The position numbers and the translations under genes are program-made. The notes under the pieces are model-generated. The model had not been told where the DNA came from and did not search any database. It worked only from the letters and a program-made list of their open reading frames with translations. Below are positions 1,281 through 5,076 of a stretch of 5,390 nucleotides of DNA, one piece after another. Position 1 is the first letter of the stretch; the number at the start of each line of letters is the position of its first letter. This DNA comes from JBFLXN01 sp040755715 [NCBI: Candidatus Edwardsbacteria bacterium] (lineage in GTDB: Bacteria; Edwardsbacteria; AC1; JBFLXN01), in the NCBI GenBank assembly GCA_040755715.1, contig JBFLXN010000177.1, positions 1 through 5,390 of the forward strand, read 5' to 3'.

Positions 1281-1532
1281 TCACTCCTTTGCAAATTCCT
1301 CTACTAACTCCGCAATCTCCTCCACCGTATCAAAAGCCTCGGCCGTAGCCTTCTCATCGGGTATTTGTATGTTGTATTTTTTTTCCAGAAACCGTTTTAG
1401 AGAGACCATTGAAAACGAATCAACGATTCCACTTGAAATTAGAGGCGTATTTTCGTTGATTTCTGTATCTGAGTCTTCTTCCAGATATTCTTTCTTAACA
1501 TAGTTAAGCACAATTTGTTTTATATCTTCCAT
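1281..1532 (-). CDS. Acyl carrier protein (phosphopantetheine carrier)
   Basis: This 83-residue, strongly acidic four-helix carrier protein has the phosphopantetheine attachment serine at S39 in GIVDSFSMV (35-43). TPLISSGI precedes it and the standard FDTVEEIAELV helix IV signature is at 67-77. The arm is expected to be added by a holo-ACP synthase such as the one encoded about 2 kb upstream. The DSF-type core and the PDEKAT segment (58-63) differ from housekeeping fatty-acid AcpP, which has DSL. They resemble stand-alone carriers next to AMP-forming ligases and alpha-oxoamine synthases, so a specialised role is more likely than bulk lipid synthesis (inference). The start is fixed by AGGAGGT (1545-1539), six bases upstream of the ATG. 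It lies 148 bp after acsA on the same strand. Confidence 0.9.
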   Translation of the reverse strand: MEDIKQIVLNYVKKEYLEEDSDTEINENTPLISSGIVDSFSMVSLKRFLEKKYNIQIPDEKATAEAFDTVEEIAELVEEFAKE

Positions 1533-1680: not shown

Positions 1681-3381
1681 TCAATCATTTTCTAAAGTAG
1701 AAATGTCACCAATTGATTCTCCCCATTCTTGTGCCCGCAATAACCGTCTCATAATCTTTCCGCTTCTGGTCTTAGGTAATGACTTGACAAATTCAATCTC
1801 CTGGGGCATAGCCAGGGGTGAGAGTTTTTTACGAATAAAATTCATTATATTAAGTTCCAAGTCATCACTCGGTTCAAATCCGGGCTTCAGGGCGACAAAC
1901 GCTTTGACCACTTCCATATTTACCGGGTCAGGTTTACCTACGGCGGCTGATTCGGCTATCGCCTCGTGTTCTATTAGCGCAGATTCAATTTCAAAAGGTC
2001 CTACGAGATGTCCAGCAGTATTGATTACATCATCGTCCCGCCCCACAAACCAAAAATAGCCTTCACTATCCAAACTGGCACGGTCGCCGCAAATATACCA
2101 GCCATTCTTGAATTTGTTCTTGTAAGTCTCTTCGTTGTTCCAGTAAGTGCGAAACATAGATGGCCAACCGGGTTTTAGGGCAATCAGTCCTACCGTCCCC
2201 GGCGTTCGGACTGGCTCAAAATTCTTCGGGTCAACTACAGTCGCTTTAATGCCAGGAAATGGTTTACCCATTGAGCCGGGTTTAATCTTCATACCGGGGA
2301 AATTTGTAATTACAATACATCCTGTTTCTGTCTGCCAATAGGTGTCATGAAATGGCAAGCCGAAGACCTCCTGAGCCCAGAGAACCGCTTCCGGATTTAG
2401 TGGCTCTCCCACACTGCAGAGATGTCGCAACGAAGAGAGATTGAATTTCTTGACAATTTCCTGACCTTCTCTCATCAATGTGCGAATGGCCGTCGGTGCA
2501 GAATACCAAACGGTAATTTTATGCCGCTCTATTAAACCATACCACTTCTCCGTCATAAAACCACTATCCAGAACCACCTGAGTAATTCCGAGACTCCAGG
2601 GTCCGATAATCCCGTAGGAAGTGCCGGTGACCCAGCCAGGGTCTGCGGTGCACCAATAAATATCTTCAGGCTTCAGGTCTAAAACCCACTTAACCGTGAG
2701 ATATTGCGACATTAACGAGGAATGAACATGCAATGCACCCTTTGGTTTTCCAGTCGTTCCAGAGGTGTAATGCAGGACCGACGGTGTTTCTGCAGTTGAT
2801 GGAAATATATCAAATTTTTCTATTGAAGGCATTTTGTCCAGAGAGAAAGGTACTTCTTTATCTTTGAGTGGCATTCCATCAGCGTCAACAATAATAATGT
2901 GTTTCAGTTCCGGAAGTTGGTCTTTGATTTTTCTCACTTTCGGCAAATGTTTTTTCTGAGTCAGAATTGCTGAAGTCTCGGCATCATCCAATCGGGTAAA
3001 GAGTGCCTCTTCACCAAAGGCAGAAAACAAAGGCTGGGCGATTCCACCCATCTTCAGAATTCCCAAAAAAGAAAAATACAACTCGGGAATTCTATCCATA
3101 AAGATGCAAATTCGGTCGCCCGGTTCAAGACCTAAGTCTTTCAAAAATTTAGCAAAGGTATTAGTGTGAACCCGCAGATTGTCAAAGGTATAGGTTTTCA
3201 CTTCGCCAGTGTGCCCTTCCCAAATCAGAGCTAGTTTCTTTCCCAATCCCTTCTCACAATTCCGCTCCGCACAATAGTAGCCAATATTGATAGGAGAACC
3301 ATCAGTATAGGCTAAATCCTTCTTGGAAATGGACCAATCAAAATTTTTACTTTTCTCTTCGTAAGAACCGATGTTGCTCAT
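1681..3381 (-). CDS. acsA: Acetate-CoA ligase, AcsA type (AMP-forming), independently initiated reading
   Basis: The 566-residue enzyme activates acetate with ATP to acetyl-AMP and then forms acetyl-CoA in the cytoplasm. Length and motifs match Bacillus-type AcsA. They are the P-loop YTSGTTGKPKG (205-215), WYSAPTA (292-298), SVGEPLNPE (323-331), YWQTETG (348-354), D433 in the GD motif, GRDDDVI (447-453), and PKTRSGKIMRR with the adenylation lysine K542, the usual site of regulatory acetylation. W349 matches the tryptophan that limits Acs to acetate or propionate. The stretch normally reading GxRxGP is GHLVGP (457-462), with Leu459 where Arg is typical, as in some AcsA-like relatives. This start is supported by GGGAGG (3394-3389), seven bases before the ATG. 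The frame upstream is nevertheless open into acpS. An AMP-ligase next to a carrier-protein gene could also load that carrier (inference). Confidence 0.9.
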   Translation of the reverse strand: MSNIGSYEEKSKNFDWSISKKDLAYTDGSPINIGYYCAERNCEKGLGKKLALIWEGHTGEVKTYTFDNLRVHTNTFAKFLKDLGLEPGDRICIFMDRIPELYFSFLGILKMGGIAQPLFSAFGEEALFTRLDDAETSAILTQKKHLPKVRKIKDQLPELKHIIIVDADGMPLKDKEVPFSLDKMPSIEKFDIFPSTAETPSVLHYTSGTTGKPKGALHVHSSLMSQYLTVKWVLDLKPEDIYWCTADPGWVTGTSYGIIGPWSLGITQVVLDSGFMTEKWYGLIERHKITVWYSAPTAIRTLMREGQEIVKKFNLSSLRHLCSVGEPLNPEAVLWAQEVFGLPFHDTYWQTETGCIVITNFPGMKIKPGSMGKPFPGIKATVVDPKNFEPVRTPGTVGLIALKPGWPSMFRTYWNNEETYKNKFKNGWYICGDRASLDSEGYFWFVGRDDDVINTAGHLVGPFEIESALIEHEAIAESAAVGKPDPVNMEVVKAFVALKPGFEPSDDLELNIMNFIRKKLSPLAMPQEIEFVKSLPKTRSGKIMRRLLRAQEWGESIGDISTLEND

Positions 3382-3819
3382 AAAAATGCCTCCCGAGTTA
3401 CGCTCTACGCTTGACGCTTCACGCCTCACGCGTCTGGCGTCTAGCGTTTCCAATATCGCTACTGCCACGGCGTAGTTGTCCGAATGTGAGAGTGAAATGT
3501 ATATTTGATTTATCCCTGCCTGTTTTGTTATTTCCAAAGCCTTCCCGCTCAAAGCAACTTCAGGTTTTCCCTTCTCATTATTGACTATTTCTATATCGCG
3601 CCAGGAGATACCATCTCGCCAGCCGGTTCCGAGTGCCTTGAAGACTGCTTCCTTGGCGGCGAATCGCACCGCATAGTGTTGAAATTTTTTCTTTTTTTTC
3701 TCACAATACTTAATCTCATCTTCACCAAAGACTCTCTCAATAAATCCTTGCCCTTCACTCTTGATTTCCTTTTCAATTCTACCAATTTCAATAATATCCG
3801 TCCCTATTCCCTTTACCAT
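1681..3819 (-). CDS. acpS: Continuous acpS-acsA reading frame: holo-ACP synthase fused in frame to acetate-CoA ligase
   Basis: No stop separates the two domains in this 712-codon frame. Residues 1-124 are a complete holo-ACP synthase, which transfers phosphopantetheine from CoA to the carrier-protein serine. It begins GIGTDIIEI (4-12), with Mg-binding D8, and has RVFGEDEIKYC (29-39), RFAAKEAVFKALG (52-64) with catalytic E57, GKP (84-86) and SLSHSDNYAVAVA (109-121). Stand-alone AcpS is usually about 120-130 residues and ends here. Residues 125-140 are encoded by a 7-base-period DNA array (3400-3448), and residue 147 is the first Met of AcsA. I place the start at 3819 because AGGAG lies six bases before it. 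An ATG at 3837 is in frame, but that extension contains this ribosome-binding site. A bifunctional fusion is possible. Because acsA has its own ribosome-binding site, AcpS with a readthrough tail plus separately made AcsA is equally plausible. Confidence 0.8.
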   Translation of the reverse strand: MVKGIGTDIIEIGRIEKEIKSEGQGFIERVFGEDEIKYCEKKKKKFQHYAVRFAAKEAVFKALGTGWRDGISWRDIEIVNNEKGKPEVALSGKALEITKQAGINQIYISLSHSDNYAVAVAILETLDARRVRREASSVERNSGGIFMSNIGSYEEKSKNFDWSISKKDLAYTDGSPINIGYYCAERNCEKGLGKKLALIWEGHTGEVKTYTFDNLRVHTNTFAKFLKDLGLEPGDRICIFMDRIPELYFSFLGILKMGGIAQPLFSAFGEEALFTRLDDAETSAILTQKKHLPKVRKIKDQLPELKHIIIVDADGMPLKDKEVPFSLDKMPSIEKFDIFPSTAETPSVLHYTSGTTGKPKGALHVHSSLMSQYLTVKWVLDLKPEDIYWCTADPGWVTGTSYGIIGPWSLGITQVVLDSGFMTEKWYGLIERHKITVWYSAPTAIRTLMREGQEIVKKFNLSSLRHLCSVGEPLNPEAVLWAQEVFGLPFHDTYWQTETGCIVITNFPGMKIKPGSMGKPFPGIKATVVDPKNFEPVRTPGTVGLIALKPGWPSMFRTYWNNEETYKNKFKNGWYICGDRASLDSEGYFWFVGRDDDVINTAGHLVGPFEIESALIEHEAIAESAAVGKPDPVNMEVVKAFVALKPGFEPSDDLELNIMNFIRKKLSPLAMPQEIEFVKSLPKTRSGKIMRRLLRAQEWGESIGDISTLEND
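3389..3394 (-). promoter_or_regulatory. Internal ribosome-binding site for acsA
   Basis: GGGAGG on the minus strand sits seven bases before the ATG at 3381 and just beyond the heptamer array. A well-placed site inside an open frame argues that acsA was, and probably still is, translated from its own start despite the fusion to acpS. Confidence 0.7.
3400..3448. repeat. Seven-unit heptamer array inside the acpS-acsA frame
   Basis: On the plus strand ACGC occurs at 3400, 3407, 3414, 3421 and 3428, exactly every 7 bases. GCGT, its complement, then occurs at 3430, 3437 and 3444, again every 7 bases. The switch point is the perfect palindrome ACGCGT (3428-3433). The remaining three bases of each unit vary. 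The array is 49 bp, not a multiple of three, and replaces the expected acpS stop region, encoding Arg/Ser/Glu-rich linker residues 124-140 of the minus-strand frame. Its composition (GC-rich, CpG-rich) stands out from the surrounding genes. Confidence 0.85.
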
Positions 3820-3840
3820 TATTGACTCCTGGCACAATGT

Positions 3841-4016
3841 TCACCGCAGAGGCGCAGAGGAGGCGCAGAAATTTATTTCAAAATTATCAATGCAAAACTA
3901 TCATTTTAAAATGCTAATTGCTAATTTTGCAATTTAGAATGAGATTATTCCTCTGTGCCCTCCCTGGCCGTTGCTCAAGGTGCAAGGCAAACGGGCAGGC
4001 TGTGCCTCCGCGGTGA
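3841..4016. repeat. Inverted-repeat element filling the tdh-acpS gap
   Basis: The outer arms TCACCGCAGAGGCGCAG (3841-3857) and CTGTGCCTCCGCGGTGA (4000-4016) are complementary at 15 of 17 positions. GGCGCAG repeats at 3851 and 3862. The left arm resembles a CACCGCAGAGGCGCAGAG-type dispersed repeat I have seen in many unrelated bacteria. The AT-rich core has a 7-base period from about 3885: TATCA at 3885 and 3899, and GCTAATT in tandem at 3913 and 3920. It also has the palindrome ATTTTAAAAT (3903-3912) and the complementary pair CAAAATTA (3879-3886) and TAATTTTG (3922-3929). A small bulged hairpin, GCC-TTGC with GCAA-GGC, lies at 3967-3988. No gene or transposase is present, so it could be a non-autonomous (MITE-like) or structured intergenic element. 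The 192-bp gap holds nothing else. Confidence 0.65.
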
Positions 4017-4029
4017 GTTTTATAGTTAG

Positions 4030-5076
4030 TCATTTCATTTCCGGTAACAGCACTACCTTCCCAGAAGTTTTCGGACTCTTCATCATCAAAGAAAATCCTT
4101 CTTCAAATTTCTCCAAAGGAAGTTTGTGGGTGATAATCGGAGAAATATCTATCTTCTTATACTTCAGAAGATTTGTCACCTTTATCCAGGTATCAAACAT
4201 CAATCTTCCATTTATACCATAGAGAGTGAGACCTTTAAAGACAATACCGTTATTTATATCTATAGTTATATTCCCTGGGGGCAATCCAAAGGCACAAAAT
4301 CTTCCACCCTTTCGCACTACTTTCAATCCCTGCTCAATTGCCTTTTGAGCCCCAGCCATTTCCAAGACTACATCCACTCCTATTCCATCGGTAAGTTCAA
4401 AGATTATCTTTTCCACATCTTCTTTTGTTACATTCATAACTTTGTCTGCTCCCATCTTTTTTGCCATCTCAAGCCTGACAGGCTCCATTCCTGCTAGGAT
4501 TACATAACTTGCACCGGAAATAGCCGCTACCCCGGTAGCGAATAGAGCAGTAGGCCCGTCGCCAAAGATAAGGACGGTCTTTCCAGCTACTGGTTCTACC
4601 AAAGTGCAATAGACTGCATTTCCTAATGGTTCCTGGACACTGGCAAATTCCCAGGGAATACTTTTGTCATTCTTCCAAGCCACTACTTCTGGAATCGCCG
4701 CATATTCGGCAAAGCATCCATCAGTATCCACCCCCAGGATTTTTAGATTATGACAGATATGTTGTTGACCGCTTAAGCATTGAACACAGTATCCACAAGG
4801 TATATGTGTCTCGGCAGAAATATAGTCACCTATTTTTATTTTGGTTACATTCTTCCCTATTTCTACCACTTCTCCGGCAAACTCGTGTCCTAAAATCTGG
4901 GGGATTCTCTTGATTCTTTCCTGAGCCCATTCATTCCATTCGTAAATATGCACATCTGTTCCGCAGATAGAGGTGGCTTTGACTTTCACCAGCACTTCAT
5001 CTTCTTTTATTTGGGGAATCTCTACTTCCTTTAATTCTACCCCAAAATCTCTTTTTGTTTTAACAATTGCTTTCAT
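4030..5076 (-). CDS. tdh: L-threonine 3-dehydrogenase
   Basis: The 348-residue zinc- and NAD-dependent enzyme oxidises L-threonine to 2-amino-3-oxobutyrate, the first step of threonine conversion to glycine and acetyl-CoA. The length matches bacterial and archaeal TDH. The substrate-side signature SICGTDVHIYEWNEWAQ (36-52) distinguishes TDH from other medium-chain dehydrogenases. Catalytic zinc ligands are C38, H64 and E65, with E149 in QEPLGNAV also conserved. The structural zinc site is C94, C97, C100 and C108. The C-terminal part has FKGLTLYGINGR and SPIITHKLPLEKFEEGF, as in TDH. The Rossmann loop reads GDGPTA (172-177), with Ala in place of the last glycine of GxGxxG, which is unusual. 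The ATG at 5076 follows GGTGAG with short spacing. The usual partner kbl is not adjacent in the window. Confidence 0.92.
   Translation of the reverse strand: MKAIVKTKRDFGVELKEVEIPQIKEDEVLVKVKATSICGTDVHIYEWNEWAQERIKRIPQILGHEFAGEVVEIGKNVTKIKIGDYISAETHIPCGYCVQCLSGQQHICHNLKILGVDTDGCFAEYAAIPEVVAWKNDKSIPWEFASVQEPLGNAVYCTLVEPVAGKTVLIFGDGPTALFATGVAAISGASYVILAGMEPVRLEMAKKMGADKVMNVTKEDVEKIIFELTDGIGVDVVLEMAGAQKAIEQGLKVVRKGGRFCAFGLPPGNITIDINNGIVFKGLTLYGINGRLMFDTWIKVTNLLKYKKIDISPIITHKLPLEKFEEGFSLMMKSPKTSGKVVLLPEMK

Follow-up and report, generated by a model that had tools for sequence, protein, structure and literature searches.

How might a gene for holo-ACP synthase lose its stop codon and run on, in frame, into the gene for acetate--CoA ligase? 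The question is raised by the window, i.e. the whole 5390-base stretch analysed here, in which a run of minus-strand genes comprises tdh, acpS, acsA and an ACP-like gene. A short array with a period of seven bases lies where acpS and acsA meet. The features needed for the argument are the following.

1281-1532, minus strand: acyl-carrier-protein-like gene downstream of acsA (Pfam PF00550, 26.1 bits, cut-off 20.8)
1585-1665, unstranded: second palindromic stretch with period 7 (TAG-N4 units), in the gap that separates acsA from the ACP-like gene (RNA fold z -4.27)
1681-3381, minus strand: acsA, acetate--CoA ligase, 566 aa, ATG at 3381-3379 (NCBIfam NF003313, 786.8 bits, cut-off 729)
1681-3837, minus strand: open frame of 718 codons joining acpS, array linker and acsA (ORF list)
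3389-3394, minus strand: Shine-Dalgarno-like GGGAGG, a putative ribosome-binding site read from the sequence, 7 nt upstream of the ATG of acsA
3398-3400, minus strand: putative displaced TAA, which would stop acpS without the array (by comparison with the junctions of loci L030 and L032)
3401-3447, unstranded: heptad array, 47 nt, ACGC-N3 five times, then N3-GCGT three times, pivot ACGCGT at 3428-3433
3448-3819, minus strand: native acpS, holo-ACP synthase (Pfam PF01648 ACPS, E 2.1e-21, ORF residues 10-127), with GAA at 3448-3450 as last normal codon and a presumed ATG start at 3819; the ORF opens at TTG 3837
3838-4029, unstranded: long hairpin between tdh and acpS, arms CACCGCAGAGGCGCAGAGG / CCTCCGCGGTG (fold z -4.76)
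4030-5076, minus strand: tdh, L-threonine 3-dehydrogenase, upstream of acpS (TIGR00692, 467.4 bits, cut-off 458.35)

The array is strictly periodic. ACGC starts at 3400, 3407, 3414, 3421 and 3428 and GCGT at 3430, 3437 and 3444, each motif in exact 7-base steps, the A at base 3400 being common to the first ACGC and the displaced TAA. A preliminary description of this DNA, which placed five ACGC and three GCGT units around ACGCGT at 3400-3448, concerned the identical feature and is confirmed. The longest run of a single 4-mer at a 7-base step in the window is five. In 1000 dinucleotide-preserving shuffles the longest run was two (857 shuffles), three (142) or four (one), and never five. TRF reports period 7 over 3407-3431 with 88% matches; the array is absent from the 20 direct-repeat families listed of 26 and from the 21 inverted pairs of a general repeat finder.

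The same description had called the array palindromic. This is true of the ACGC/GCGT cores, which match between the arms, and of the fold: as DNA the array forms a hairpin better than any of 200 shuffles (z -4.48), and as RNA of the coding strand only two of 200 fold as well (z -2.84). The 3-nt spacers differ, however, so the inverted copies and the hairpin are imperfect. Repeats are error-prone, and a mistake of one or two bases in sequencing or assembly might have created the apparent fusion, its correction restoring the stop. We regard this as highly improbable: the array is short, its units can be told apart by their spacers, and all eight cores are in register.

Between GAA 3448-3450 and TAA 3398-3400 the array measures 47 nt and not the 49 bp first given. 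The shift of frame proposed from that length stands, as 47 is 2 modulo 3 and the TAA is now out of frame. One of the three coding-strand frames through the array is open, while the other two are stopped by TAG or TGA.

The junction was compared among loci L001-L080, L101-L112 and L232-L251 together with the window, giving 90 distinct loci with AcsA, 57 of which (window included) have acpS adjoining. In all 56 other loci the acpS frame closes ahead of acsA or no more than a few bases into it; only the window reads through. On these 56 loci a shared fusion is rejected. AcpS ends 0-4 residues past the residue preceding the window's array in 39 of the 56 printed rows, in agreement with the earlier statement that the array begins where AcpS should end. 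L024 would make 40; its row comes from a poor segment, and with the acpS stop at 5543 and acsA from 5676 it is unfused either way. From acpS stop to acsA ATG the median distance in the 56 loci is 18 nt (quartiles 12 and 51), and the gap is 30 nt or less in 37. In the window, 16 nt separate the displaced TAA from the acsA ATG.

Two loci have a similar junction without an array. The junction reads CTGGAAGGATGACTCGG in L030 and CTAGAAGGATGACTCGG in L032, and TTGGAA-[47 nt]-TAACTCGG in the window; both loci thus have GAAGGATGACTCGG where the window has GAA, the 47-nt array and TAACTCGG. Among the fetched loci their Tdh proteins are the nearest to that of the window, at 69% identity. By eye, these short matches look like an empty site, as an insertion displacing the stop would leave. 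The resemblance is weakened because L030 and L032 have 41 nt between acpS stop and acsA ATG, against 16 in the window, and the likeness does not extend beyond the junction. An insertion before the acpS stop would be the simplest reading of the three sequences. It is drawn from distant loci because no near relative of the window was found (80 loci kept of 311, 147 genomes and 132 genomes searched). Compared over most of its length, AcsA is at most 77% identical (L104), and a contig-edge fragment in G046 reaches 81% over residues 443-718. In a quick AcsA tree the window falls beside Coatesbacteria, Fermentibacterota and one Zixibacteria row, a placement that is unsettled (support 84).

We consider it fairly probable that the window array is one member of a dispersed population of heptad arrays, and that its 47 nt entered before the acpS TAA and opened the frame into acsA. 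The array would have arrived between the last acpS codon and the stop, by insertion or by local expansion, putting the TAA out of frame, and the new frame would by chance have stayed open into the adjoining acsA. The preliminary description had proposed that the array was inserted, that the stop was lost and that acpS was joined to acsA. The empty-site-like junctions and the absence of any other fused locus favour the proposal, but 'joined' can be said of the reading frame alone, as acsA still has a ribosome-binding-like site and its own ATG. For the same reason (GGGAGG and ATG retained) an AcpS-AcsA fusion protein, predicted from the 718-codon frame, is possible rather than given. AcsA would still be translated mainly from its own start, and the AcpS tail or fusion would be tolerated, not selected.

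A bifunctional AcpS-AcsA protein could also have been selected, with the array kept as a basic linker of a useful fusion. The frame is open over 718 codons with both domains above their cut-offs, and acpS and acsA adjoin in the 56 other loci. None of these is fused, however, and no relative with the same linker was found; acsA retains GGGAGG and ATG at normal spacing, and the linker is whatever the heptads encode in the sole open frame. We find such selection improbable. Among the papers listed by a literature search, none was about an AcpS-AcsA fusion, judging by title and abstract.

Arrays are a recurrent feature of this junction. The lag scan identified heptad arrays of other sequence at the acpS-acsA junctions of L011, L022 and L024. 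In L011 (Bacteroidetes), a GACGAAN heptad array occupies 8367-8453 at the acpS end, and acpS stops 25 residues late after passing through it, which is an independent parallel to the window. The junction of L026 carries an octad array at 5801-5850, and weaker periodic stretches are visible by eye in L013, L019 and L028. L049 has about three copies of a 32-nt unit at its acpS-acsA junction (3620-3778), and only TTG/GTG starts are listed for its acsA.

The two other gaps of the tdh-acpS-acsA-ACP run in the window both contain hairpins with period-7 stretches. The TAG-N4 stretch gives a lag-7 scan signal at 1601-1642 at a looser threshold, and TRF finds a short TGCTAAT period-7 stretch (3912-3926) within the tdh-acpS hairpin. 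Repeats of the GCAGAGG/CCTCTGC type resembling this hairpin presumably occur in other environmental bacteria. These strong neighbouring hairpins, and the RNA fold of the array (better than shuffles), are what a role in the operon mRNA would predict, be it attenuation, processing or stability between acpS and acsA, with the periodicity incidental. Such a role is quite improbable in our judgement. Rfam gives no match for the array at the gathering threshold, and junction arrays differ between lineages. Furthermore, the 37 gaps of 30 nt or less are too short for a separate array, and arrays of like kind also occur within coding sequence (see below).

Beyond the junction, period-7 arrays recur in relatives, as the preliminary description had suggested checking. 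In a lag-autocorrelation scan of 80 loci and the window, lag 7 gave the most arrays of lags 4-24 (17, versus 0 in a single shuffled copy); the junction arrays of L011, L022 and L024 are three of these 17. In a 400-kb sample of the chromosome of G012 (the genome of L012, WOR-3 bin77, CP070664), lag 7 was again at the top, here of lags 4-15, with 19 arrays of several units and 0 in a single shuffled copy. In a set of 50 genomes, ACGC-N3 repeated four times is present in 12, with 89 matches altogether, and the reversed pattern has 13. The 147 genomes of the phylum listing of G012 contain 671 matches, spread over 38 genomes (41 reversed), where overlapping matches within one array are counted separately. 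In the 147 genomes the same core at period 8 gives 10 matches in 4 genomes, and at period 6 none. Two counts tell against the preferred reading: 109 of the 147 genomes lack any ACGC-N3 x4 array, and the exact pivot ACGC-N3-ACGCGT-N3-GCGT is rare, occurring in three.

Of the 19 arrays of the G012 sample, 14 lie beyond ORFs of at least 100 aa or at their margins, although such ORFs cover 90% of the sample. The other five are inside: four occupy a sorting domain or directly precede one, a single gene having three of the four, and the last is in an ORF of 106 residues, perhaps not a gene. The units CTAC, AGAT and GATA occur in both coding and non-coding DNA of the sample, one to three times each; the other units tested occur in one kind of DNA only, coding or non-coding, or are absent. 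One literature search gave no paper on 7-bp palindromic repeats in metagenome-assembled genomes.

Such copies could be mobile elements, REP- or MITE-like and moved by a transposase acting in trans, comparable to the in-frame palindromic elements of Rickettsia. The window array is palindromic and folds well, copies are many in some genomes (156 of the 671 matches come from G165 alone), and WOR-3 arrays lie in frame in coding sequence. Nonetheless we judge mobility of this kind unlikely: no fixed ends are seen, copies differ from one another in their units and in how many they have, with such variation also within the single array of L024, and arrays of unrelated sequence have only the period in common. 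A REP or BIME is a 20-40 bp extragenic palindrome of a fixed, high-copy family; here there is a palindromic fold, with imperfect arms and with the exact pivot found in three of the 147 genomes. For a MITE, terminal inverted repeats and a target-site duplication are expected; by eye there are no distinct termini and no clear duplication, one of 2-3 bases being indistinguishable from chance. As in the Rickettsia elements, described in a review (PMC10969869) as palindromic DNA within genes forming translational fusions, the frame of the array is open. However, those elements are given there as about 150 bp long, in defined families and with a conserved peptide, while the array has 47 nt (not a multiple of three), period 7 and no conserved ends, and sits at the acpS 3′ end.

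The closest known class is that of heptanucleotide simple sequence repeats. PMC4692102 describes GGGAATC in Xanthomonas, GGGGA(T/C)T in Nostoc and tandem heptanucleotides in Calothrix, and cites the idea that heptamers favour polymerase slippage. PMC4692102 and PMC4679880 report heptanucleotide repeats as over-represented in bacteria, with slippage proposed, citing a 2007 survey. Motifs of the window array succeed one another directly at 7-nt intervals, ACGC five times and GCGT three times where the class asks for three, and TRF agrees; dispersal in the genome is seen in some relatives. Its units are not near-identical, with an invariant 4-nt core, varying 3-nt spacers and the 88% TRF matches; the array is therefore a variant, not a member, of the class. 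Likenesses to the repeats of PMC4692102 are the 7-nt unit, dispersal, intergenic excess, and variation of length and sequence among close relatives. Differences are the 4-nt core with free spacers, the pivot into the complement, the coexistence of several unrelated units in related genomes, and the location of some arrays in coding frames. The TAACTGA repeats of Beggiatoaceae are also direct heptamer repeats of scattered distribution that includes Bacteroidetes, and PMC4679880 discusses overlap with gene ends and possible mobile elements. Unlike the window array, which lies at a gene 3′ end with an open frame, TAACTGA is described there as a single invariant unit that in most cases closely precedes a start codon and has stops in its forward frame.

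On the preferred reading, a dispersed heptad array displacing the acpS stop, heptad arrays would form a dispersed class with a 7-bp period that collects in weakly constrained DNA, mainly between genes. Polymerase slippage and foldback template switching, not a dedicated transposase, may be what enlarges and disperses them. Plain slippage would be expected to leave identical units, and against this all eight cores are intact while the spacers differ.

In WOR-3 genomes heptad DNA also lies in coding sequence. We inspected 26 ACGC arrays, a subset of those in five genomes titled WOR-3 or Stahlbacteria. Twelve are read in frame within a sorting domain at the C-terminus: the loop that follows IYDxxGRLVK has nine, and the strand that follows NPF the other three. 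A repeat that makes coding sequence, called unusual in the preliminary description, is thus not a one-off. A profile scan of five such proteins found FlgD_ig in five and Por_Secre_tail in four, in each case with one below cut-off. Among the literature matches listed, no paper treating sorting domains in WOR-3 was found.

A larger sample (L142-L211) comprised 70 of 967 protein-similarity matches from 13 genomes of the WOR-3 phylum listing, 30 fetched automatically and 40 hand-picked (20 of these from G012), all similar to a query bearing an ACGC array. Sixty-five fitted the domain pattern (five failed the regex), and removal of one duplicate left 64 distinct loops, among which paralogues are related and hence not independent. 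ACGC occurs in 20 of the 64, a share biased by the query, the other 44 being less so. Over all 64 loops the identity at lag 7 is 0.529, the other lags from 3 to 13 giving 0.20-0.29. With the loops that have ACGC pairs set aside, the remaining 44 show 0.510 at lag 7 and 0.467 at lag 14, with lag 4 next (0.307). At lag 7 the 60 bases before the loop show a slight excess (0.333) and those after it none (0.224).

Two other origins were considered. Most of the loop periodicity resides in the DNA, because synonymous resampling of the 44 loops, which keeps the protein, gives 0.341 (sd 0.010) at lag 7 against the observed 0.510, with 0 of 500 as high; a mere by-product of protein sequence is thus rejected. 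A periodicity general to such sorting domains is rejected as well, since loops from other genomes have a lag-7 identity of 0.265 and no excess, in a set of 19 parsed loci of 30 from six other genomes searched, with no traceable parsed row from G013, with G035 in the same phylum listing as G012, and with the loop cut by a different regex than in WOR-3. The WOR-3 sorting-domain loop (type IX-like) accordingly carries in-frame period-7 DNA of several unit sequences, beyond the share of the protein.

These loops invite a wider, tentative reading, to which we give less than even credence. Heptad arrays would be a distinct repeat class, arising in some lineages through a process to which all unconstrained DNA is open, with the unit free and the period fixed near 7. 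This process would have occupied two segments of the WOR-3 sorting domain that are under little constraint, leaving many secreted proteins with in-frame heptad DNA of several sequences; it could also remove stops and fuse neighbours in an operon, the window being an example. Heptanucleotide repeats as such are known, but their residence in a coding loop and the loss of a stop here look new. Borg tandem repeats are comparable in that PMC9879509 places them between genes and inside ORFs, where they add protein segments, often to extracellular proteins; all units in ORFs are divisible by three there, unlike heptads. A repeat-making process of this kind would be able to remove a stop codon and supply a ready-made gene fusion. 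The sorting-domain loop would record it, since its DNA, though coding, keeps a 7-nt period, not a multiple of three, to a greater degree than its amino acids account for. The old question why bacterial repeats favour 7 nt could thus be put to the test within genes, whose reading frame restricts what is retained.

Seven is the commonest period, not the sole one: period 8 is also enriched, a further point against the preferred reading. Lag 8 gave 10 arrays in the 80 loci and window (one TTTC-rich, in L009) and 12 in the 400-kb G012 sample. In the 44 loops it lies slightly above the resampled value (0.300 versus 0.272, 0 of 500). Period-8 arrays are likewise of several sequences, as seen at L026 5801-5850, L011 1301-1374 and L018 5185-5252.
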